This document shows positions 32,493 through 44,330 of a stretch of 64,000 bases of DNA, piece by piece; position 1 is the first letter of the stretch; each line of letters opens with the position of its first letter. The notes beneath the pieces were generated by a model. The model did not search any database. It was not told the origin of the DNA and saw only the letters and a program-made list of their open reading frames with translations. A program made the translations under genes and the position numbers. The stretch is from Planktosalinus lacus (lineage in GTDB: Bacteria > Bacteroidota > Bacteroidia > Flavobacteriales > Flavobacteriaceae): assembly GCF_014640155.1 (NCBI RefSeq), contig NZ_BMGK01000008.1, forward strand, positions 1 through 64,000, written 5' to 3'.

Positions 32493-33352
32493 TGAAGCAT
32501 ATTTTCATACTAGCAGTGTTTTTATCATCTTCTATGGCTTTCACACAAAATTGCGAGGCTTACAAATATTATGGAGATACCTTAAAATACAAAGCGTGCA
32601 ACAAAGCAAAAGAAGCGGCAGGGCACTATCAATTCAGTAAAGAATACCAAATAGCTTTGGATGAATCATTAGAAATTGACCCCACTTTTGACCACGCATA
32701 TTTTGCAAAATCTATTGCTTATTTAAAAAGCGGGGATTTTGTGACCTGGAAAAGACTCATCGATCAGGCCGTTCAATACAATCCAAAAGAACACCTGGGG
32801 TATAGAGGTTGGTGTCGCTATCAATTTTTTAGAGATTACAAAGGCGCAATCAGAGACATTGAAAAGCTGGATCGTTTAGTAGACTACGATATAGGGCAGT
32901 CTCAAAATGGAACCTATCATTTGAATATTGCTAAAGGCTTATGTTATAAAGCAATTGGAGAAAAAGACAAAGCCATAGAAATCATAGAAAAACAAATCAA
33001 ACTCAACGAAGAAGAGAATTTTGTTGGAGCTTATGACTATGTACATCTTGGGGTGCTCTATTTAGAAACCGGAAAATTTGAAAAAGCCATAGAGACGTTC
33101 AAGAAACAAACGCACTATAATGAATTGGCTGAAAATCAATATTATTTAGCGTTAACGCATCAAAAGCTGGGAAACAAAAATGAGTCCCTAGCTTGTCTAA
33201 AAAAAGCAAAGGAGCTTTATATTGGTAAAAGAAGAATGTTTGACACCTATTCAAACCCTATGGACAAAATATATTTAGAGGATATTGAAAATAAATTAAA
33301 AACGCCTTTCAACCCTCCCGATGGCAGGAGTCCTGCAGTCCTAAGTCAATAA
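32492..33352 (+). CDS. Exported TPR protein with repeat-derived C-terminus
   Basis: 286 residues from the ATG at 32492 (the TTG codon before it is rejected because the ATG overlaps the previous stop). A signal peptide (about 1-18) is followed by about six TPR units (30-250: SKEYQIALDESLEIDPTFDHAYF, GKFEKAIETFKKQ and others). The last 10 residues (after FNPPDG) are encoded by intergenic repeat DNA that continues past the stop, so the native C-terminus seems replaced. Confidence 0.82.
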   Translation: MKHIFILAVFLSSSMAFTQNCEAYKYYGDTLKYKACNKAKEAAGHYQFSKEYQIALDESLEIDPTFDHAYFAKSIAYLKSGDFVTWKRLIDQAVQYNPKEHLGYRGWCRYQFFRDYKGAIRDIEKLDRLVDYDIGQSQNGTYHLNIAKGLCYKAIGEKDKAIEIIEKQIKLNEEENFVGAYDYVHLGVLYLETGKFEKAIETFKKQTHYNELAENQYYLALTHQKLGNKNESLACLKKAKELYIGKRRMFDTYSNPMDKIYLEDIENKLKTPFNPPDGRSPAVLSQ

Positions 33353-33870
33353 ATTAGCTGTAAGCTCTAAGCTTTAGGCAGTATGCTATAAGCATAAACA
33401 AAGCTTTGTACTTCTAACTTCATTTTGTCTCTTTTCTCTTCTCTCTTTTCTCTTTTCTCTATTCTAAACCCCGTCTTACGTCCTAAGTCCTGCTGTCCTA
33501 AGTCAATAAATTAGCTCTAAGCTTTAGGCAGTAGGCTATAAGCATAAACAAAGCTTTGTACTTCTAACTTCATTCTGTCTCTTTTCTCTTCTCTATTTTC
33601 TCTATTCTATACCCCCGTCCTACGTCTTACGTCCTGCAGTCCTATGTCTTAATACTTAATACTTTATACTTAATACTATTTTTATTAGTCTCTTTTCTCT
33701 TCTCTATTTTCTCTATTCTAAGACCCCGTCCTAAGTCAATAAATTAGCTGTAAGCTCTAAGCTTTAGGCAGTAAGCGGTAAGTCATAAAAAATCTTTGTA
33801 CTTCTAACTTCTAACTTCATTTTGTCTCTTTTCTCTTCTCTATTTTCTCTCTTCTAAACCAAGGGTGAGC
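33325..33870. repeat. Heptad-phased intergenic repeat block
   Basis: Three to four copies of a module: TAAGCTC/TAAGCTT/TAGGCAG units, then cttctaacttc, then TCTCTTT/TCTCTTC/TCTATTT units, then GTCCTAC/GTCTTAC units and TACTTAA units. Each segment has a 7-base period with occasional 6- or 8-base units. No gene. Confidence 0.85.
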
Positions 33871-34769: not shown

Positions 34770-34860
34770 ATTGAAGGTAAGTCATAAAAAATCTTTGTAC
34801 TTCTAACTTCAAAACTTCATTTTGTCTCTTTTCTCTTCTCTATTTTCTCTCTTCTAAACC
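34770..34860. repeat. Single heptad-phased repeat module
   Basis: Same module as in 33325-33870 (gtaagtcataaaaaatctt, cttctaacttc, TCTCTTT and TCTATTT units). Its right end runs into a truncated gene on the minus strand. Confidence 0.75.
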
Positions 34861-34959
34861 CCCGGTGTCAAGAATGTCAAATGTTGCTGGATCGTCGCTT
34901 TCACATTGAAAAGCCGTTAAACATGGAAATAACATTAGTAAAAAAAGATGTTTTTTCAT
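34840..34959 (-). pseudogene. 5' remnant of a lipoprotein gene
   Basis: Thirty-nine codons: a signal peptide with lipobox LTAFQC (Cys near 19), then ESDDPATFDILDT, after which the frame enters the intergenic repeat (GGLEERK) and stops. The normal lipoprotein would be much longer, so the remainder has been lost at the repeat boundary. Confidence 0.6.
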
Positions 34960-35045
34960 AGCACTTATTTTTATAATAAAAATAAAATTTAAACTGGTAT
35001 TACTTGTGAATTCTCTGTTATTAAAATGTTATATACAAATGATGC

Positions 35046-35444
35046 TTACTCAATATCTTTAGTTTTTATTTCATATTTGTACTTAAATACTCTTTTCATA
35101 GGTTCACTACCAATCCAATCATCATTGACATTGTAGATGTTCTTTCCAGGACTATTCTCTTTATAAATTTTCAGAATCGCTTGGGAAGAATTTCGAACAA
35201 CTACAGAATCATAGTCTGTCAGTGATGGTTGCAAGAAGGTATTGCCAACATCGAAGACCTCTTGAAAAAGTGCAGATTCATTTGGTTGAATCTGAAGTGA
35301 TTTGTTTAAAGATTCATCGAATGAAATAAAATCAATTTTAAGTTCTTGAGTGGTCAGGTTTTCAATATTTGCCTCCATATCAGATACAGGATCACAACTC
35401 ACAAACAAAAATATCATAATAGTAATGGACAAATGATTTTTCAT
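35046..35444 (-). CDS. Small lipoprotein, unknown function (possible cassette gene)
   Basis: 132 residues from the ATG at 35444. Signal peptide with lipobox FVSC (Cys near 17) and a beta-rich mature part (LTTQELKIDFISF, VVVRNSSQAILKIYKEN). No family recognised. It lies between a half-site at about 35030 (atatacaaatgatgctta) and the site at 35502, so it may be the last, edge-truncated unit of the cassette array. Confidence 0.7.
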   Translation of the reverse strand: MKNHLSITIMIFLFVSCDPVSDMEANIENLTTQELKIDFISFDESLNKSLQIQPNESALFQEVFDVGNTFLQPSLTDYDSVVVRNSSQAILKIYKENSPGKNIYNVNDDWIGSEPMKRVFKYKYEIKTKDIE

Positions 35445-35501
35445 ACTGTTTTGTTTTTTTACGTGAAGATGAAAAAAACTCGAAAAGGTTGCGTCAAAAT
35501 G

Positions 35502-35845
35502 AAGCACAACATTAGTTTATAAGAACATCAGTTTCTTATTGTTGATATATTCCATTTCTGTTTAATTCAACAATACCATTTTATAGATGATATACACCCA
35601 TAAAGGCGTATATACAAATAGTATTTTATTTAGTGGGGATATTGCCGGTTATATTGATGTCAAGTTGACCGGCACCACCAAATATATAAAAAAATGTTAA
35701 AACCCCTTTTAATAGATAAGAGAATAAAGAAAATAGAGAAGAGACCACGCCCGTGAATACAATACATAACACGCGATGCAATCGCTCGGGAGCGAAGGAC
35801 ACTCTGTTCCTATTTAGGGGCGAAGCCGTCTACTCGATTGGGCTT
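35502..35845 (-). repeat. attC-like site S1 (copy A of a 320-340 bp site)
   Basis: Boundaries by core complementarity: TTGGGCTT (35838-35845) starts the toxin/antitoxin unit and AAGCCCAAC (36437-36445) ends it; AAGCACAAC (35502-35510) faces the lipoprotein unit. The site begins about 10 bp after the toxin stop. Positions 35507-35839 are nearly repeated at 38349-38666 (S3), and the two copies diverge just after CTACTCGATT. Confidence 0.7.
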
Positions 35846-35854
35846 TCGTACTTT

Positions 35855-36155
35855 TTAATTAATGTCCTTTTTTAACTTGTCAGGATTTTGTCTTGTGTCA
35901 AAGATTGTAATTATTTCTATTTCTTTTCGTTCGGCTATTATTCTGTAGAAAAATGTCGTTTGCTTTGTTACAACACATTTGTAAAGATTATTAAATTCCG
36001 ATGATTTTGGACAACTATCAGGTTGATTTGATATTTGTTTTATCATTTAGTTTAGAAAGAAACTTGTCACGAGTTTTTAAGTTCCACTCTTCTAGTAAAT
36101 ATTGGGATAGCTTTAGAAGTTTTGATTCAGCAAGTTCGGATAAGAATACTTTCAT
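35855..36155 (-). pseudogene. ParE/RelE-type toxin gene with a frameshift
   Basis: Starts at ATG 36155, overlapping the antitoxin stop by one base, and reads MKVFLSELAESKLLKLSQYLLEEW, typical of the ParE/RelE superfamily; the frame then shifts near 36046 and the C-terminal half continues as IKQISNQPDSCPKS, VVTKQTTFFYRI, IEIITIFDTRQNP. The 301-bp span is one base more than 100 codons, so one inserted base explains it. The toxin is probably inactive, although the antitoxin is intact. Confidence 0.8.
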
Positions 36156-36373
36156 TAAGAAATTTTCTTTAGGAATGACTCGTAGGAAACCCTTTTGCCT
36201 TTATCCAATTCCTCAATGCCTTGCTTTATTTCAGATTGCTCTGGCAAAGTCAATTCGTCCCAAAAATCAACTTTCTCTTTTTTTACAAAGTCAGCTACCT
36301 TCTGGATGAAATCAGTATTTTCAGTCTCCAAAATCGTTTTGAGCAGTTCAAGTTTTGTTGTTCGAATATCCAT
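36155..36373 (-). CDS. Antitoxin of a ParE/RelE-type module
   Basis: 72 residues from the ATG at 36373 (seven codons into the longer frame). It is a short, charged helical protein (MDIRTTKLELLKTILETENTDFI, VKKEKVDFWDELTLPEQSEIKQGIEELDKGK) of the type paired with ParE/RelE toxins in Bacteroidota. The C-terminal YESFLKKIS is typical. It precedes the toxin with a one-base overlap. The pair occupies one cassette of the array; toxin/antitoxin pairs are common in integron arrays. Confidence 0.82.
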   Translation of the reverse strand: MDIRTTKLELLKTILETENTDFIQKVADFVKKEKVDFWDELTLPEQSEIKQGIEELDKGKRVSYESFLKKIS

Positions 36374-36436
36374 TATAAAAATTCTTTTAATCAAATGTAC
36401 AAAAAATATGATTCAGTTCCATTTTTTGTCAGTATG

Positions 36437-36571
36437 AAGCCCAACGTTTAGTATATGAAAAGTAGGCGATTTCGAAGCACTAAACTTTCAGTTAAGCACA
36501 AAGTTTGATACGAGCCAAAACCTTTGATTTTACTATTGTTTCGCCTATTTTTTATATACATTGTTACCCAC
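36437..36571 (-). repeat. attC-like site S2
   Basis: The clearest hairpin site. Left arm AACgtttaGTATATg..TAGGCGA pairs with right arm TCGCCTAtttttTATATACattGTT, with extra bases on one side as in attC bulges. GTTACCCAC (36563-36571) starts the SulP unit and is exactly complementary to GTGGGTAAC (38344-38352) at its other end. The minus-strand end reads GTTGGGC, a perfect GTTRRRY integron core. Confidence 0.78.
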
Positions 36572-36605
36572 TGGCTTTTTTCTTTTTTTAAGTCAGATTT
36601 TTTAT

Positions 36606-36613
36606 TACTTTTG
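36606..36613 (+). promoter_or_regulatory. -7 promoter box TACTTTTG for sulP
   Basis: Exact TAnnTTTG match inside the cassette, about 175 bp before the sulP ATG. It would give this inverted gene its own promoter. Confidence 0.45.
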
Positions 36614-36756
36614 CAACTTCAAAAAATGACGAGTACAAATATAGCATATAATTTTCTCCTGCCTGCGGTAACTCCGCCCTGAATTGCTGTATTCAATCAA
36701 TTCCTTGTTCTCTTTAGAACAGTCTCAATAGTCAATTTTAATACAAACACATTTAA

Positions 36757-36776
36757 ACAAATGGATGTCCATTTGT
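36757..36776. promoter_or_regulatory. 20-base palindrome before sulP
   Basis: ACAAATGGA-tg-TCCATTTGT has perfect 9-base arms and ends 12 bp before the ATG at 36789. Candidate operator or mRNA hairpin that would also mask the ATGs at 36761 and 36765. Confidence 0.55.
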
Positions 36777-36788
36777 AACAGAAAAATT

Positions 36789-38318
36789 ATGAAGAAATAT
36801 TTAAACTTATTCGATTTTAAACAAAAAGTAGATTATAAAACAGAAGTCTTATCAGGTCTTACAGTTGCTCTAGCTCTTATACCTGAAGCTGTAGCTTTTG
36901 CCTTAATTGCGGGCTTGTCTCCATTGACAGGTCTTTATGCAGCATTTGTAGTAGGTTTGGTTACATCTATTTTAGGTGGTCGACCTGGAATGATATCAGG
37001 TGCTACTGGTGCAGTTGCTGTTGTCATTGTCGCTTTGGCAATTTCTCACGGTCCTGAATATATTTTTGCCACAGTTGTTTTGGCAGGTATTATTCAAATG
37101 TTAGCTGGATTCTTAAGGTTAGGAAAATTGATGCGATTAGTGCCACATCCTGTTATTTTCGGATTTGTTAATGGTTTGGCTATTATCATATTTATGTCAC
37201 AGCTTGACCAATTTAAAGATTCATCTGGAAATTGGCTATCAGGTCAAGCTTTATACACTATTCTTGGTTTAGTAGTTTTAACAATGTTGATTATATGGGG
37301 GTTACCTAAACTAACAAAAGCAATACCTGCATCCTTAATCGCAATTTTAGCCGTTTTTGGAATTGTTGTTGCTTTTGGAATTGACACAAAAACTGTTGGC
37401 GATATTGCTTCAATCCAAGGTGGTTTTCCACCCTTTCATATTCCTAATGTGCCGTTAAATTTTGAAACCTTGGCATTAATATTTCCTTATGCTGCAATTA
37501 TGGCTGGTGTTGGTTTAATTGAAAGTTTGTTAACATTGAATATTATTGATGAAATTACAGAAACTCGTGGAAGAGGAAACAAGGAAGCCGTTGCTCAAGG
37601 TGCTGCAAATATCTTATCAGGTGTTTTCTCTGGAATGGGTGGTTGTGCTATGTTGGGTCAAAGTCTAATCAATATTTCTTCCGGTGCAAGAGCGAGGCTT
37701 TCTGGAATTGTTGCTGCTGTGGCACTATTAATTTTCGTAATGTTTGGAGCAGGTTTGATTGAACAACTACCGATGGCAGCTTTAACGGGATTGATGATGA
37801 TGGTGGCAATAGGAACTTTTGAATGGGCAAGTATAAAAACTTTTAATAAAATGCCAAAATCCGACATCTTCGTTATGGTTGTTGTTACGCTGGTTACTGT
37901 AGTCCTGCACAATTTGGCTTTAGCAGTTATTGTCGGTGTTATTATTGCAGCTTTAGTTTTTGCTTGGGATAATGCGAAGCGTATTCGTGCAAGAAAGTCC
38001 GTTGATGAGCACGGAATAAAACATTATGAAATATACGGTCCATTATTTTTCGGTTCTGTAACTGCGTTTAATGAAAAGTTTGATATTCTAAACGACCCTG
38101 ATGAAGTTATCATTGATTTTAAAGAAAGTCGGGTTGTTGATATGTCAGCAATAGAAGCACTAAACAAAATAACAGAACGCTATTTAAAAGTCGGGAAAAA
38201 AGTCCATTTGCGTCATTTGAGTACTGACTGTCAAAAGTTACTCCAAAATGCCGATAGAATCATTGATGTCAATGTCATAGAAGACCCAACTTATAAAGTC
38301 GCAGTCGATAAGGTTTAA
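36789..38318 (+). CDS. SulP family anion transporter with STAS domain
   Basis: 509 residues from the ATG at 36789; an ATG at 36765 lies within a palindrome. About 12 hydrophobic helices (20-400) with the SulP signature LIPEAVAFALIAGLSPLTGLYAAF near 28, followed by a C-terminal STAS domain (about 430-505, VIIDFKESRVVDMSAIEALNKI). SulP carriers move sulfate, bicarbonate or other anions; specificity is not evident. It faces opposite to the other units of the cassette array and has its own promoter. Confidence 0.92.
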   Translation: MKKYLNLFDFKQKVDYKTEVLSGLTVALALIPEAVAFALIAGLSPLTGLYAAFVVGLVTSILGGRPGMISGATGAVAVVIVALAISHGPEYIFATVVLAGIIQMLAGFLRLGKLMRLVPHPVIFGFVNGLAIIIFMSQLDQFKDSSGNWLSGQALYTILGLVVLTMLIIWGLPKLTKAIPASLIAILAVFGIVVAFGIDTKTVGDIASIQGGFPPFHIPNVPLNFETLALIFPYAAIMAGVGLIESLLTLNIIDEITETRGRGNKEAVAQGAANILSGVFSGMGGCAMLGQSLINISSGARARLSGIVAAVALLIFVMFGAGLIEQLPMAALTGLMMMVAIGTFEWASIKTFNKMPKSDIFVMVVVTLVTVVLHNLALAVIVGVIIAALVFAWDNAKRIRARKSVDEHGIKHYEIYGPLFFGSVTAFNEKFDILNDPDEVIIDFKESRVVDMSAIEALNKITERYLKVGKKVHLRHLSTDCQKLLQNADRIIDVNVIEDPTYKVAVDKV

Positions 38319-38343
38319 TGTTGACGGTCGTTTTTTTCCGCTT

Positions 38344-38673
38344 GTGGGTAACATTAGTATATAAGAAATAACAGGGTACTTATTACTGACATATTAATTC
38401 AAGTCAATTTTTTAATAGCTGATATACACCTATTTAAGGGTATATATAAATGTTTTTTAATTGTGGGGATAATACCGGTTGTGTTGTTATCAAGTTGACC
38501 GGCACCACCAAATATATAAAAAAATGTTAAAACCCCTTTTAATAGATAAGAGAATAAAGAAAATAGAGAAGAGACGCCCGTGAATACAATACATAACACG
38601 CGATGCAATCGCCCGGGAGCGAAGGACACTCTGTTCCTATTTAGGGGCGAAGCCGTCTACTCGATTATAGGCA
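38344..38673 (-). repeat. attC-like site S3 (copy B)
   Basis: Near-identical to S1 over most of its length. TAGGCA (38668-38673) starts the DinB/nitrilase unit and pairs with TGCCTA (40110-40115) at its end. The divergence from S1 begins exactly after CTACTCGATT, as expected at a cassette crossover point. Confidence 0.7.
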
Positions 38674-38681
38674 TTTTTTTA

Positions 38682-39167
38682 TTATAGAGATGCTTTAATT
38701 TTGCCTAAGTGATGAAAACTGTGTCGAAGAGCATGATCCTCAATAAAAAACTGAGCAGTTAAAGGAGCATCATGATACAATGATACTGGAGCAGAATTAT
38801 CTAATTCCTCATCCGTAAATTCCCTTATTGCATTGGCAGCATTTTCACTATTGGTTCTCAGTAAATCCAATGTTTTCTGTCTGTCAGCCTGTTCGTTTTC
38901 AGTGGCATGTTCAGCATTCATTTTATCAATTGCTTCTTTGGTAACTTCTGTAATTGGGTTTCCTTTGCCAAGAATTTTCGCTAACTCAACTTCTACAGGG
39001 TAGACGCTTGCTACATGATGAACAACGACACCGATGGATCTACCATCTCCTAAAACAGGTGTATCCCATTCTGAATCTGATAATCCTTCTGCGAATTTGG
39101 CAAGTTTCATAGCCCCTAAAATTAGACGATCAGCGAGTGCGTTAGCACGGTTGTTTGAATTAGACAT
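38682..39167 (-). CDS. DinB-like protein
   Basis: 161-residue four-helix protein of the DinB/YfiT-like superfamily. Candidate metal-binding His residues are in VVVHHVAS near 50 and in FIEDHALRHSFHHLGKI near 140-152, spaced as in DinB folds. Members are metal-dependent thiol or small-molecule transferases. It starts 7 bp after the nitrilase stop and shares its cassette, so the two may act in one pathway. Confidence 0.8.
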   Translation of the reverse strand: MSNSNNRANALADRLILGAMKLAKFAEGLSDSEWDTPVLGDGRSIGVVVHHVASVYPVEVELAKILGKGNPITEVTKEAIDKMNAEHATENEQADRQKTLDLLRTNSENAANAIREFTDEELDNSAPVSLYHDAPLTAQFFIEDHALRHSFHHLGKIKASL

Positions 39168-39174
39168 CGTATAT

Positions 39175-40092
39175 TTATTTAGTTGGTTTTATTGAAAAAT
39201 TAAAAACATCTGGTCGAGAATAGTGTCCCACAACATCGAACATTCGTTTAGCTTCCGTAATCGTGTTTAAGTCTATTTCTGCGTATAGAATGCCTTCTTC
39301 AGCTTCTAGTGGACCTGCAATAATTTGACCTTTTGGATCAATGATACAGCTATTTCCAGTATTGACCCATTCTCTTCCTTCGGGATAAAGAGTTTTGAAA
39401 TTATATTCTTTCGGGATATCGTCCATTCGAAGCGCCATGCAAGTGCTGATTACAAAAAGGCCTCCTTCACGAGCAATGTGTTGCATTGATTGTAACCAAT
39501 TTGGACTTTTATCCCATGTTGGTGCAGCCAGAATCTGTGCACCAGTTTCATAAACAGCATTTCTTGCTAACGGCATGTAGTTTTCCCAGCAGATCAAACC
39601 GGCTACTTTACCTGCAGTCGTATCGTAAGAATGAAACGTTGAGCCATCTCCTTGTGCCCAGATAAGACGTTCTCCACCTGTGGGTATTAGTTTACGGTGT
39701 TTTCCTGTTATTACACCTTCCTGATTAATGAAGAGCAGGCTATTAAATAAACTTGTTCCACTTGTTTCTGAATTCCGTTCATGCATTCCCATAACAACAC
39801 TTATTCCTGCTTGTCTTGCTGCATGACAGAGTTTTTTTGTTGAATCATCCGGAACAGAAATAGCATTATCCACTAATTTCACATATAATTCATTTAACTC
39901 TGCTCCTTTACTGTTTGGGATTAACCATACCCAATCAGGATAACCTGAAATGAAAGCTTCGGGGAATACGATCAGCTTGGCTTCCTTTTCTCCAGCTTCC
40001 AAAATTGCATTACATGCTTTTTCTATTGTTCTTTCTTTGTCCAGAAAAACAGGGGTTAGTTGGGCTGATGCTATTCTAAAAATTTTAGACAT
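39175..40092 (-). CDS. Nitrilase / carbon-nitrogen hydrolase
   Basis: 305-residue nitrilase-superfamily enzyme. The Glu-Lys-Cys triad is visible: Glu in VFPEAFISGYPDW near 46, Lys in GKHRKLIPTGGERL near 130, Cys in GLICWENYMPLAR near 165. The sequence around Cys (CWENYMP) is that of true nitrilases rather than of amidases, so nitriles are the likely substrate. It is soluble and the first gene of a two-gene cassette whose core site lies about 18 bp before its start. Confidence 0.9.
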   Translation of the reverse strand: MSKIFRIASAQLTPVFLDKERTIEKACNAILEAGEKEAKLIVFPEAFISGYPDWVWLIPNSKGAELNELYVKLVDNAISVPDDSTKKLCHAARQAGISVVMGMHERNSETSGTSLFNSLLFINQEGVITGKHRKLIPTGGERLIWAQGDGSTFHSYDTTAGKVAGLICWENYMPLARNAVYETGAQILAAPTWDKSPNWLQSMQHIAREGGLFVISTCMALRMDDIPKEYNFKTLYPEGREWVNTGNSCIIDPKGQIIAGPLEAEEGILYAEIDLNTITEAKRMFDVVGHYSRPDVFNFSIKPTK

Positions 40093-40109
40093 AATCTTTT
40101 CTTTTTAAT

Positions 40110-40242
40110 TGCCTACGTCCCGTATAAAAACAGTGCTTGCTAGCAAGCTTGATTGTCCGCAGGACAATCCGCTAAGCAAGCGAGCAGGAAATTTCGATTT
40201 GAGACTGTGTTAAGCATAGTTTTTATATACATTATTAGCTGT
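40110..40242 (-). repeat. attC-like site S4
   Basis: TGCCTA (40110-40115) pairs with the start of the DinB/nitrilase unit. TTAGCTGT (40235-40242) pairs with ACAGCTAA (41348-41355). GTATAAAAACagTGCTT and AAGCAtaGTTTTTATATAC form the stem, close to the S2 arms. A GCTTGC/GCAAGC pair and TGTCC-gca-GGACA lie inside. It begins about 6 bp after the propeller gene stop. Confidence 0.75.
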
Positions 40243-40248
40243 TGCCTT

Positions 40249-41313
40249 TTATTTATTCCTTCTTGTCATATCAGTAACTACTTCTCCGTCATATTTCCAA
40301 AATCCATTTGTTCCACCAAACCAAATGTTGTCTTCTTTATCTCCGACTATAAAGACTATCCGTTCGTAAGTAACATTTTTATCATCAACAAATCGAGTAA
40401 ATTCCTTTCCGTTATAGATACAAAATCCTTGCATTCCACCAACCCATAAATTACCTTGGGTGTCTTCATAAATTGCTCTGACATTTTTGGTGCAAAGTCC
40501 GTCTTTCTCTGTAAAGGTTTGAAATGAATTACCGTTAAAGGATGTCAGGCCACTTTCTCTATTACCATTGAAACCAAACCAAATAATTCCCTTACTGTCA
40601 ACAATAATTGTTCTTACTTGGTCGTCACTTAATCCATCTTTCGGCATATATTGAGTAAAGGTTTTTCCGTCAAATTTGTGAACTCCACCGTGAGACATTG
40701 AGGCGAACCATAAGTTTCCGTAATTATCTTCTGTAATTCTTTGAATAACGTTGTGATAAAGTCGATCAGGCATAGTATCGCCAATTTCTGATAAGTGGTT
40801 CGTGAATGATTTGCCATCGTAACGATATGCTCCGGCACCATTTGTTCCTATCCAATACATTCCATTTTTATCTTGAACAATAGATTGTACTTCATTTGGA
40901 TTGACCATCGGATATGATTTTTTAAGCCAATCGGTTGAGATTTTATATTCTGGAATTTTTAAGTGCGTAAACTTTGTTCCATTAAAAATGGAAATTCCGT
41001 TTGCTGTTCCAAACCATAAATCGCCATTATCAACTTGATAAATACAAGATATTTTATTGTTAGAAAGCCCGTCTTTTTCTGTAAAATGAACAAAATTTGA
41101 ACCGTCAAATTTATAAACACCATCGTTGGTAGTTCCAAACCAAAGATTGTCGTCTTTATCTAAAAAACCGCAATAAACATTTCCATTTGGGTTTTCTATT
41201 TTTCCTGTCGTTATATTATCTTCAATTTTCTTTTGCTTGACCTGTCCATTACAAGAAGACAAAATACATATCAAGCCTACAAGTGTAAAATATTTTGGTA
41301 AGATTAATTTCAT
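40249..41313 (-). CDS. Propeller lipoprotein (two-component-regulator propeller repeats)
   Basis: 354 residues: signal peptide with lipobox LSSC (Cys near 21), then a beta-propeller of about six to seven Reg_prop units (for example DNLWFGTTNDGVYKFDGSNFVHFTEKDGLSNNKI) ending at the C-terminus. This is the sensor part of hybrid two-component systems without a membrane helix or kinase. It is related to the 43107 protein and to the N-terminus of the 52490 kinase. Sole gene of its cassette. Confidence 0.88.
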   Translation of the reverse strand: MKLILPKYFTLVGLICILSSCNGQVKQKKIEDNITTGKIENPNGNVYCGFLDKDDNLWFGTTNDGVYKFDGSNFVHFTEKDGLSNNKISCIYQVDNGDLWFGTANGISIFNGTKFTHLKIPEYKISTDWLKKSYPMVNPNEVQSIVQDKNGMYWIGTNGAGAYRYDGKSFTNHLSEIGDTMPDRLYHNVIQRITEDNYGNLWFASMSHGGVHKFDGKTFTQYMPKDGLSDDQVRTIIVDSKGIIWFGFNGNRESGLTSFNGNSFQTFTEKDGLCTKNVRAIYEDTQGNLWVGGMQGFCIYNGKEFTRFVDDKNVTYERIVFIVGDKEDNIWFGGTNGFWKYDGEVVTDMTRRNK

Positions 41314-41347
41314 ATGCTTCCCTATTGGTTTTTGGTTTGTTTAGGTT

Positions 41348-41486
41348 ACAGCTAACGGTTCACGGCTATGAGCTGTGGCGTGGTTTGAGCAACTAATGTA
41401 GCAAACAAAACCCAGACCTGAGGAAAATCCGAGAGGATTTTCGTGAGTAGGCTTTAACTAGCAATTGTTTATGGGCGGTGTTGGCA
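41348..41486 (-). repeat. attC-like site S5
   Basis: ACAGCTAA (41348-41355) closes the propeller unit; GTTGGCA (41480-41486) opens the T9SS-protein unit and pairs with TGCCAAC (42963-42969). A perfect inner hairpin, GAAAATCC-gag-aGGATTTTC type, lies near 41430. The site begins about 7 bp after the stop at 41493. Confidence 0.75.
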
Positions 41487-41492
41487 AATCGT

Positions 41493-42920
41493 TTATTTTT
41501 TTAGTATCTTTTCAATTATAGAGCCACCATTAGTGTTTAACTTAAGAAAGTACAATCCTTTTGGTAGTTTATTAAGATTTAGTTTAAGCTTAGTTGTATT
41601 TGAATAGTTAAACTTCATAATCTCTTGACCTAATGTGTTTAAGACTTCAATGTTCAGGTTCTCAAAAGCTTTGTTTAAATTAATAAATAAATAATCAGAA
41701 ACTGGATTTGGATATATTTCAAAAGAATCCTCATCATACTCTTTAATGTTTAATGGTTGACAAAAATCATAGGTGTCAAATTCATTGAAATAATTGTCAA
41801 TATAGTTAGGCAAACCTAATCGAGAATCTTGTCCATTCAATGATAATCCATCCAAAATGAAATCACAGTTTTGACCCAATAGATTGGGATTGTTAATAAC
41901 ACCTAAAAATGCTTCATTCCATCTTGCAAGATAAATTTTACCATCAGGAGCTATTTGTAAACTCCCAAATGGATTTGTAACAGCTCCTGAACCTGGAAAA
42001 GTTTCGGTGAAAACAGTAAATTGGGATTGAGGTATATCTGTACTTTCTAAATTATATTGATACAGTCTATTAAATGCTCCATCTGTTTGTATATTATATA
42101 AAGTTGATATGTATAACTTTGAACTATTAGGAGAAAAAGAAATGCCGTATTGGGTTTCATTTGTAGCTGTATTGCGAGGAAGAGTAGAATGAAAAAATAG
42201 TTCTCCGGTTAGGTTATTAAACGTAAATAATTTAGAGTCGCCTCCGCTACTAGAATTACTATTAGTGTATGCCAGCCAATTTCCATCAGGTGAAAATTTC
42301 ATTAGTTCACAGCAGGTGGCAAATATTGAATGATTTATTGGTGTTATTTCCGGAGTAGATATTCCAGTATTTGTTATTAAATAATTATAAAATGAAGTTG
42401 AAGAAATATTCATAGTTAGCAACCAAATTCCAGTTTTATCAGCATTATAGGTCGCTGCCATTCTTTCTGAAGCGTTATTATGCAGTAAGGTGTTTTTGGT
42501 AGCTGATTTGATATCTCCTAAACCTCCATTTAGATTTGTATCAAATTCGGAATACCGAAGCCCATTAACGCCACCTTCAAAATCAGAATAAATAATAAAA
42601 TAATTAGTTTCTGTTTGTGGAATTATAAGAATCTGACTTGTGGAGATATGTCCTAAAAGGCCCTCTCCGTTAGGAGTGATAGTATGAGTAGAATCCCATA
42701 CATTTATTCCATTTGTATAGAATAGTAAATTTCCTGCACAATCTGAAATAGATGCACTAGCTTCAAATCCGTCCATTGAGCTATTTAATAGAATTGAAGG
42801 AACTCCAGTTGAAAAGTCTATTCCTACTTGTTCACCAAAATACCAAATATCGGCTCTACCTTGACTAAACATTATTTGTGTAAAAAACAGAGGAATAAAA
42901 TAGAGTAAAGTTTTCTTCAT
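41493..42920 (-). CDS. T9SS type A sorting domain protein with PD40-like propeller
   Basis: 475 residues: signal peptide (about 1-19), a propeller-like domain (about 20-385, with SPDGNWLAYTNSN, SPNSSKLYIST, APDGKIYLARWN) and a C-terminal type IX secretion sorting domain (about 400-475: YPNPVSDYLFIN, GQEIMKFN, LPKGLYFLKL). It is predicted to be secreted and attached to the cell surface through T9SS. Sole gene of its cassette. Confidence 0.9.
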   Translation of the reverse strand: MKKTLLYFIPLFFTQIMFSQGRADIWYFGEQVGIDFSTGVPSILLNSSMDGFEASASISDCAGNLLFYTNGINVWDSTHTITPNGEGLLGHISTSQILIIPQTETNYFIIYSDFEGGVNGLRYSEFDTNLNGGLGDIKSATKNTLLHNNASERMAATYNADKTGIWLLTMNISSTSFYNYLITNTGISTPEITPINHSIFATCCELMKFSPDGNWLAYTNSNSSSGGDSKLFTFNNLTGELFFHSTLPRNTATNETQYGISFSPNSSKLYISTLYNIQTDGAFNRLYQYNLESTDIPQSQFTVFTETFPGSGAVTNPFGSLQIAPDGKIYLARWNEAFLGVINNPNLLGQNCDFILDGLSLNGQDSRLGLPNYIDNYFNEFDTYDFCQPLNIKEYDEDSFEIYPNPVSDYLFINLNKAFENLNIEVLNTLGQEIMKFNYSNTTKLKLNLNKLPKGLYFLKLNTNGGSIIEKILKK

Positions 42921-42962
42921 TATTTTAAATGTGGTTTTAAGTAAAAAGTCTCAAAAATGTCA

Positions 42963-43096
42963 TGCCAACGGTCTCAACTATGGCTAGTGCAGGATTTTAA
43001 AGTACTTTTTTTTCCGTTTAGCAGTTAGTTTGTTTAATTTAATTGCTTTCATATCAGCATTTTTACCCGCATTATGTATAGCCATTGATGTGCGTT
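42963..43096 (-). repeat. attC-like site S6
   Basis: TGCCAAC (42963-42969) closes the T9SS-protein unit exactly; the right end (tgatgtgcgtt, 43087-43096) only partly matches the AAGCACA core at 44206. AACGGTCTC near the left end recurs in S7. It begins about 11 bp after the stop at 43107. Confidence 0.65.
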
Positions 43097-43106
43097 TGCA
43101 TTTCTT

Positions 43107-44183
43107 TTACCAAGGGCCATTCTTGGTTACATTCATAAAGATACCGTTTTCTAATCTAAAAGCACCACCAAATCCAACGAACCAAAGCCTGTTGGCTTGG
43201 TCTTTAAATAGTTGAAAAACTACCGGGCCTTTATTATCTTCTGATGGTTGGAATTCTATGAGTTCATTGCCATCATACGTATACAAATAGTGTTGATTGG
43301 AAACAAACCATAGATTGCCGTCTTTGTCTTCTGCTATACTTCCTATCCCTTTTCCTGTTTCAATGTTCCCTTTTGTTATATTTTCAGCCTTATTCTCTGT
43401 TAAATGATAGAGTCCTTTTTTTGTTGACACCCATAATTCACCCTGTTTATCTTCGAATATTTCATTGACAAAGTTCGTTTCAATTCCTGCTTTCTCAGAA
43501 ACATTTATAAGTGAATGATTGGCGTATGAAAACAGACCAGCATTTGAACTAAACCATAATGTGCCATTACTATCTTCAAATATACTATGCACCATTTTTG
43601 CACTTGAAATACCCCGGGTAGCATCTGCTTGTCCTTCGGGAAGTTCAAATGTTGTGAACTCCTGACCATCCAAAACACACACACCGGCTATAGTTCCAAT
43701 CCAGATCCTGCCATTTTTATCAGCAGCAACAGACCACACATCATTGCTAATTAATCCGTCAGATTCATAATAATTTCTCACAGTATCTCCATCAATACTG
43801 CTTATTCCATCTGAATGTCCTAACCATATTTTACCATCCTTGCTTTCTGTAATTTCTTTTATTGTTACACCTTTTCCCGACTCACTAATGATTTTATCAA
43901 TATGAATTAATGAGTCCCCAACAACTTTAAATGCTCCGTTTTGTGTTCCAAACCAAATAATCCCTTTGCTGTCTTGAAAAATGGTCCTTACAACTTGACT
44001 AATTTGATCATGAATAACTGAATGAAACAAAGAGCGTTCATTGTTGTAAGGATTTTGCTTATGCTCTTCTGGTTTTTTTTCTGAGTTTATAGATTGTTCT
44101 ATCTCTATCTTGCTTTTTTGTTCACTACAAGTATTTAAAAAAAGCGACAGAGCTAGGGCAGTAAATAACTTAATTTTTATCAT
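43107..44183 (-). CDS. Propeller lipoprotein, second copy
   Basis: 358 residues: lipobox LNTC (Cys near 19), acidic linker, then Reg_prop repeats (FQDSKGIIWFGTQNGAFKV, DGKIWLGHSDGISSIDG, NGRIWIGTIAGVCVLDG, DSNGTLWFSSNAGLFS, KQGELWVSTKKGLYHL). It is a diverged paralogue of the 40249 protein with the same architecture. It has no kinase or DNA-binding part. It is alone in the cassette at the upstream (right) end of the array. Confidence 0.87.
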   Translation of the reverse strand: MIKIKLFTALALSLFLNTCSEQKSKIEIEQSINSEKKPEEHKQNPYNNERSLFHSVIHDQISQVVRTIFQDSKGIIWFGTQNGAFKVVGDSLIHIDKIISESGKGVTIKEITESKDGKIWLGHSDGISSIDGDTVRNYYESDGLISNDVWSVAADKNGRIWIGTIAGVCVLDGQEFTTFELPEGQADATRGISSAKMVHSIFEDSNGTLWFSSNAGLFSYANHSLINVSEKAGIETNFVNEIFEDKQGELWVSTKKGLYHLTENKAENITKGNIETGKGIGSIAEDKDGNLWFVSNQHYLYTYDGNELIEFQPSEDNKGPVVFQLFKDQANRLWFVGFGGAFRLENGIFMNVTKNGPW

Positions 44184-44205
44184 CAGCGGTTTTCAATCAT
44201 ATTTG

Positions 44206-44250
44206 AAGCACAATGGTCTCGGCTCGTATGTTTATACAATGTTTAATTTA
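44206..44250 (-). repeat. Partial attC-like site S7, right edge of the array
   Basis: AAGCACAATGGTCTC (44206-44220) resembles S6 (AACGGTCTC) and S1 (AAGCACAAC), then GTATgtttATAC. The remaining part is missing or unrecognisable before the intergenic repeats. Confidence 0.5.
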
Positions 44251-44330
44251 TTAAACATAAATATAGTAGTTTTCCATTTAATACTAAGCGCTAAAATAGA
44301 AGGGACAGAGAGTTTCCCGGCTAGATAGAA

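Follow-up and report, generated by a model that had tools for sequence, protein, structure and literature searches.

The 64,000 nucleotides of Planktosalinus lacus (Flavobacteriaceae) analysed here, which we call the window, are the first part of contig NZ_BMGK01000008.1 (hereafter C8). Between 35.0 and 44.2 kb they hold seven gene units with intervening sites that are read on the minus strand, the whole being flanked at 34.1 kb by a protein that matches no Pfam family and at 44.8-47.9 kb by an AcrB-type transporter. A sequence-only reading had taken this region for an integron-type cassette array without an integrase, with seven sites and unusually diverged cores. This array, and a tyrosine recombinase on another contig of the same genome (C11) that probably moves its cassettes, are the subject of this report. 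Its features are listed below in the order in which they are read; R1 is a covariance model described in the next section, and core matches are given out of 6 nt.

44212-44330, minus strand: S7, remnant of an attC-like site joined to the end of an IS110-type element; identical sequence lies at the end of contig C16, in C10 and beside IS110 transposase genes
43087-44214, minus strand: cassette U1, propeller protein of two-component-regulator type, 358 aa (43107-44183; Pfam Reg_prop); ends match only partly
42967-43089, minus strand: S6, attC-like site (R1 E 1e-5)
41480-42969, minus strand: cassette U2, type IX-secreted protein, 475 aa (Pfam Por_Secre_tail); ends GTTGGCA/TGCCAAC
41354-41482, minus strand: S5, attC-like site (R1 E 5e-10), with relatives on C16, C11, C10 and C3
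40234-41356, minus strand: cassette U3, propeller protein, 354 aa (Pfam Reg_prop); ends AGCTGT/ACAGCT, 6/6
40114-40236, minus strand: S4, attC-like site (R1 E 0.0027)
38665-40116, minus strand: cassette U4, DinB-family protein and carbon-nitrogen hydrolase (Pfam DinB_2, CN_hydrolase); ends TAGGCA/TGCCTA, 6/6
38350-38667, minus strand: S3, element of about 320 bp ending on attI-like TTATATACTAATG, then TT; 85% like S1, aligns with attI, lacks the exact attI pattern
36563-38352, minus strand: cassette U5, SulP sulfate-permease-family gene lying on the opposite strand (Pfam Sulfate_transp, STAS); ends ACCCAC/GTGGGT, 6/6
36443-36565, minus strand: S2, attC-like site (R1 E 8e-13), with an 88% copy on C16
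35838-36445, minus strand: cassette U6, short frames, a putative toxin-antitoxin pair according to the sequence-only reading; ends GGGCTT/AAGCCC, 6/6
35508-35839, minus strand: S1, element of about 330 bp whose end (35508-35548) has the exact attI pattern, which occurs elsewhere in the genome only in the attI beside the integrase
35039-35510, minus strand: cassette U7, small protein (35046-35444) without Pfam match; far end degraded, no good core partner

An Rfam scan of 33-46 kb returned nothing at gathering score.

Complementary cores and hairpin sites

The earlier claim that each unit carries complementary cores at its two ends proved correct. In the five clean units these cores match at 28 of 30 positions (only 4/6 in the type IX-secreted protein unit), and among the 120 ways of re-pairing them the true one alone reaches 28, the runner-up stopping at 23. 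The outer two units match only partially, again as claimed, and the core behind S1 could be paired with no good partner (score 1). A plain search for GTT..AAC core pairs that used no site information rose little above shuffled sequence, and was replaced by tests based on sites.

For these, R1 was built from 26 aligned sites, out of 31, in six other Bacteroidota records (Winogradskyella, Flavobacteriaceae S0862, Seonamhaeicola, Algibacter, a Bacteroidetes metagenome-assembled genome (MAG) and Zunongwangia), none of them from this genome; the chains behind integrases that supplied them had been selected on complementary ends, with folding adding to the score. R1 recovers S2, S5, S6 and S4, all on the minus strand, which fold moderately when taken alone (-11.5 to -20.0 kcal/mol on the gene strand); two further matches in the window (E 0.21 and 0.72) lie inside genes and were dropped. 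S1 (35508-35839) and S3 (38350-38667), each about 330 bp, were rejected as attC since R1 misses them and their ends resemble attI. The seven sites originally counted thus resolve into four attC-like sites, two attI-like elements and, at 44212, an outer attC remnant beside an IS110-type end.

Similar sites extend well beyond the window. R1 gave 26 matches at E<=1 in eight stretches of this genome and 22 genome-wide at E<=0.1, 21 of which lie on C8, C10, C11 and C16, and DNA searches with S2 and S5 match C16, C10, C11 and C3. C16 (9.5 kb) consists of cassettes end to end, and C10 has toxin-antitoxin cassettes (YoeB, HI1420-type antidote, PemK/MazF, ParE). In a pooled test on 21 of the 26 matches, which gave 17 neighbouring pairs (at least three of them skipping a site), cores belonging to the same unit agree at 80 of 136 positions, the maximum of 100,000 permutations being 70, and the control comparison across one site is at the level of other pairs (2.57/8 versus 2.42/8). 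That cores match between neighbouring sites and not across one site is what a circular intermediate predicts, in which the two ends of a cassette once formed a single site. The cores are as unlike the integron rule as had been noted, with 3 of 21 right cores of own-genome sites fitting GTTRRRY by eye.

The 26 training sites share a hairpin of 14 pairs with two-sided changes in 11 of them, so that the common secondary structure whose lack would have told against the sequence-only reading is present and covaries. In the alignment 92% of cells form pairs, whereas shuffles give 70% and versions slid out of register 25-50%. Core positions 1-6 pair in 93-100% of 59 cassettes from named loci (positions 1-7 having been partly selected for) and positions 9-11 pair again, while position 8 does so in just 2%, A standing opposite C in 47 cassettes. 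Cassettes from another genome (G385, below), which were not selected for their cores, have an equal pairing profile, with A·C at position 8 in 75 of 85. Two more A·C mismatches lie inside the site, in 20/26 and 26/26 sites. At all three places examined there are thus conserved A·C mismatches and not the extrahelical bases of IntI-type attC; on the bottom strand they read as G·T. Modelled with DNA energies, 50 of 51 sites are more stable as the bottom strand, the mean difference being 4.2 kcal/mol, and the same is seen in 36 of 39 when the arms are taken alone and in three of the four window sites. In attCs of the integron integrase IntI, the strand is chosen via extrahelical bases that are read by the I2 domain of the enzyme (PMC4792948). 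In the sites described here, we infer, bottom-strand G·T pairs mark the strand.

A patch-less recombinase and its attachment site on C11

C8 has no Phage_integrase match although it carries sites. The window therefore is, by definition, a cluster of attC sites lacking a nearby integrase (CALIN), yet its sites are not of IntI type and S1 and S3 are attI-like. The notion of an array system without integrase does not hold for the genome as a whole, which encodes on C11 a tyrosine recombinase of 373 aa (P0001) followed, on the same strand, by attI and a cassette array whose first cassette lies 68 bp on.

In sequence and in fold, the catalytic part of this protein is nearest XerA and IntI4. The additional patch of IntI (I2 domain) that the sequence-only reading had expected of the recombinase is absent: the profile has 21 positions where IntI4 has 64 residues, and the distance from the first arginine motif to HxLRH is 93-95 residues in the measured Bacteroidota rows (99 in L068) versus 136 in four patch-bearing rows. 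This is not an integron in the strict IntI sense. All nine proteins scored with the IntI model TIGR02249 fall below its cut-off of 265 bits (185-217 bits), none of 60 relatives passes it, and the XerC and XerD models TIGR02224 and TIGR02225 give 165-167 bits against cut-offs of 335 and 330. NF040815 is passed by three of eight named relatives, the P. lacus protein missing its cut-off; its name, 'site-specific tyrosine recombinase/integron integrase', is applied by NCBI to several relatives, so that the hint of integrons in databases lies in a name alone.

The enzyme also has an extra N-terminal domain. The Pfam HARP domain (PF07443) matches it in 3 of 20 members (best E 6.8e-7) and in none of the others, a profile search reaches 4o66 at E 0.057, and the nearest folds to the predicted one are those of UvsW, XPB and HARP, the structural match being moderate. 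Assigning it to HARP from the fold alone proved too weak; motif and model together predict a domain resembling HARP and the XPB damage-recognition domain (DRD).

In a tree of 73 recombinases, L128, L133, L134 and L137, which bear the patch and were taken for IntI by spacing alone, form a clade (100/100); the backbone is unresolved and L117 sits on a very long branch. Two related recombinases from Marinilabiliaceae (L100 and L101) have frames that, at 720 and 676 aa, greatly exceed those of the others. Plasmids of Acinetobacter and others (H4-H15) encode a recombinase, named TnpF in one record, that is about 51% identical over residues 120-364 of the P. lacus protein, the N-terminal part being unmatched.

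The attI region is kept between this genome and that of a congener (G003), with 171 of 194 positions identical (88%) up to ..TATATACTAATGTT (GTT) and no likeness thereafter. The exact pattern ATATCAACAATAA..ACTAATGTT occurs twice in P. lacus, in S1 and in the attI on C11, seven times in G003 and not at all in three other congeners, where the attI of G001 and G004 may be cut off because the integrase sits at a contig end; a reversed control pattern was never found. The likeness of S3 to attI is one of alignment only. Six copies in G003 lie far from the integrase, and three of these stand before a cassette whose ends match; no such cassette was seen at the remaining three, where 1500 bp could be read, or at S1 itself. 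Arrays distant from the integrase may thus own entry sites. The far attI-like sequences in G003 are on its contigs C13, C18, C59, C63, C71 and C82. CT-rich repeats occur near the window array (33338-33870, 34776-34867, also 35713-35745 and 38543-38575), with an inverted copy inside both S1 and S3.

Arrays behind the recombinase in other genomes

A protein search gave at least 8000 candidates (identity 67-100% among the 120 matches listed). In named genomes 589 relatives of the integrase were confirmed, the best 80 of which were kept. Rufibacter, Flavobacterium enshiense, Algibacter onchidii, Seonamhaeicola, Flavobacteriaceae S0862, Winogradskyella and a MAG have chains of between 5 and 14 cassettes behind the integrase. 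When the first cassette was scored in Bacteroidota loci with more than 350 bp downstream, 12 of 30 reached at least 8 and 15 of 30 at least 7, compared with 0 and 7 of 156 null windows; in 40 freshly fetched integrase loci, 36 of them testable, these counts were 18 and 21, against 10 and 39 of 360 for a Markov-sequence control. Xer genes tried as array heads reached 8 in 0 of 20 cases and 7 in one. Applied to 20 further loci, R1 matched in 8 of 12 array candidates, with none in L225, L083, L091 and L093 and none in the eight control loci.

The largest array is that of G385, a one-contig genome in which R1 places 87 sites (E<=0.01) over 69 kb starting right behind the integrase, every one of them on the integrase strand. 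The sites were set by R1 alone, except that one site end at a piece border was set by script. In the 86 cassettes that they delimit, six core bases are complementary in 75, five in 10 and three in one, so that cassette ends match at 503 of 516 positions, when the best of 20,000 permutations reaches 234 and the mean across one site is 2.02/6; 85 cassettes have 46 different cores between them. In 70 cassettes the longest frame is on the array strand, in one it is on the other strand, and in 15 it is under 50 aa.

Across the family, scoring up to 44 sites per genome, R1 finds sites at E<=0.001 in 70 of 80 genomes and at least three in 66. The N-terminal integrase domain was matched in 54 of the 80, that is, in 53 of the 70 with sites and in one of the 10 without (Fisher p 1e-4), where the lone match is weak and lies in a frame of 41 aa; 17 of the 70 site-bearing genomes are without it. 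In the phylum it was matched in 61 of 296 genomes, some matches falling in longer frames that are perhaps not integrases.

Outside chromosomes, a Chryseobacterium plasmid carries the integrase with at least two cassettes. Among the three plasmid records fetched, clean cassettes occur in L223 only, L224 having two R1 sites and no convincing first cassette and L225 neither. Relatives also occur in 45 phage records, one covering 80% of the query. Five non-Bacteroidota loci (L083, L091, L115, L133 and L137) score at least 8 for a first cassette, the null there being 8/180, which is suggestive only of first cassettes behind their integrases. Integrases of the same type with a possible first cassette are found in L091 (a Spirochaetota MAG), L083 and L115 (Bacillota MAGs) and L093 (Paenibacillus).

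Traces of cassette movement

Comparison of congeners bears out the expectation that units move singly, with junctions at RTT. In three of them the same attC end, ..CCAGAGAAC, runs into GTT and then into three different cassettes, two of which sit behind other attCs in P. lacus, the sequences parting at GTT; in the switch of a propeller cassette one core base differs. Within P. lacus, C11 and C3 share a cassette with a tetratricopeptide repeat (TPR) gene (95% identity). In further pairs, among them propeller and TPR cassettes and one of toxin-antitoxin type, the body is kept and a different attC stands after AAC, as though attCs themselves were exchanged, which top-strand use or exchange inside sites could have caused; such pairs are L005 5901 and L216 3645, L038 6507 and L216 4511, and L041 5232 and L042 6050. 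At L038 ~1059-1309 lies a cassette of some 250 bp whose ends are complementary and which holds no plausible gene.

Ends of IS110-type elements lie inside attC-like sites on C11, C10 and C16, in G004 and at 44.2 kb of the window. IS1111-family elements that target attC are known (PMC11187229), and these ends would be a second sign of attC likeness. They are found at window 44212-44330, L041 ~5388 and ~6490, L038 ~960-1060, L005 9410-9519 and L215 ~5640, and assembly contigs break at them, a likeness to the IS1111 elements that target attC.

What moves the cassettes

Taken together, these observations make it very probable that 35-44 kb holds seven integron-type cassettes, with junctions at RTT and hairpin sites on the minus strand as proposed at the outset, whose likely mover is the patch-less tyrosine recombinase of C11, cutting between G and TT in predicted single-strand hairpins that would be read by its predicted HARP/XPB-DRD-like N-terminal domain. 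A cassette would leave as a circle in which its two ends pair, rebuilding one arm of its site; the substrate would be the bottom strand; the N-terminal domain would do the job of the IntI patch by recognising hairpins; and the C11 integrase would act in trans on attI-like copies such as S1 and S3, one integrase thereby serving several arrays.

The window by itself might suggest an ordinary remnant of an IntI-type integron that has lost IntI, the C11 recombinase being an unrelated neighbour, since the window holds no integrase and Bacteroidota are among the phyla with integrons (PMC8618304). This is very improbable, given that an IntI over the cut-off occurs in none of 60 relatives, that arrays begin directly behind the patch-less integrase in many genomes and not behind Xer genes, and that the sites do without the GTTRRRY rule and have A·C mismatches in place of extrahelical bases. 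The genome does encode seven tyrosine recombinases over the Pfam cut-off, any of which could be considered, be it XerC/D or an integrase of conjugative-transposon type, but none of 20 Xer genes heads an array at a score of at least 8, and it is beside the C11-type integrase that attI is kept between congeners, so that another mover appears very unlikely. We give least credence of all to an explanation without site-specific recombination, in which REP-like (repetitive extragenic palindromic) repeats spread or recombine by homology, or the hairpins belong to Y1-type elements: the sites are indeed repeated and hairpin-forming, and some attCs were swapped in congeners, but homologous exchange between repeats does not yield cassettes that each have complementary ends while their cores come in 46 kinds, and 87 sites in a single orientation with joints at GTT also speak against it.

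A more serious contender, which we regard as a substantial possibility though not the favoured one, keeps the arrays as they are and gives the N-terminal domain another role (dimerisation, attI binding or regulation), the bare Xer-like core reading the sites by their G·T pairs. The moderate structural match of the domain leaves room for it. UvsW and XPB act on branched DNA. HARP, too, belongs to a protein that acts on branched DNA (PMC4035279). That the nearest folds all come from such proteins fits hairpin recognition.

A second type of integron?

The sequence-only reading, partly supported as a whole, named the kind of system correctly, but a CALIN with diverged cores is too modest a description. 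From the sequences in hand, we read the system as a distinct type of integron, integron-like in its anatomy and joints, but not in the IntI patch, model, core rule or extrahelical bases. With IntI integrons, whether mobile, sedentary chromosomal or superintegrons, it shares an integrase beside attI, an array of hairpin sites, complementary cores within cassettes, joints at GTT and toxin-antitoxin cassettes. It differs from them in that the integrase lacks the patch, does not reach the IntI model, has an extra N-terminal domain and lies on the array strand, in that the sites have free cores and A·C/G·T in place of extrahelical bases, and in its dispersed attI-like copies.

Other relatives are partial. 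XerA-type recombinases (NF040815, 5hxy, 4a8e) have the nearest catalytic core in sequence and fold, whereas here there are in addition an extra domain and cassette arrays. The HARP domain of SMARCAL1, the XPB damage-recognition domain and the N-terminal domain of T4 UvsW are alike in sequence motif (in the three members mentioned) and predicted fold, but sit in helicase-type proteins and not, as in this case, in fusion with a tyrosine recombinase. A survey of tyrosine recombinases describes an integron-like subgroup in which the insertion is not fully conserved, yet calls that insertion essential for integron function (PMC8138268); the incomplete insertion is a point of likeness, and the accessible part of that survey mentions neither arrays nor a HARP-like domain. 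Recombination of folded single-stranded cassette ends has been tied to the I2 domain of IntI, which the available text describes as not identified elsewhere (PMC4792948). Judging by titles and the starts of abstracts, with subscription papers and preprints outside the scope, no paper on patch-less or HARP-bearing integrons in Bacteroidota was found.

On balance we incline to a broader view, that this is a second type of integron that evolved apart from IntI, in which a HARP/XPB-DRD-type domain and bottom-strand G·T wobbles would replace patch and extrahelical bases; its arrays would reach superintegron size and be present in most genera of the family, in other Bacteroidota and perhaps in Spirochaetota and Bacillota, as well as on a Chryseobacterium plasmid, with scattered attI copies allowing one integrase to feed several arrays in trans. 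A separate origin from IntI is neither shown nor excluded by the recombinase tree, its backbone being open.

The sites found in 70 of 80 sampled genomes of the family, together with a patch-less enzyme, contrast with the one complete integron, that of Salinibacter ruber, that a large survey reports, in the part available, for Bacteroidetes proper (PMC9024848). If the enzyme works, a large uncounted pool of cassettes would be added, and hairpin recombination would have a second solution, the evolution of which would be directly testable.

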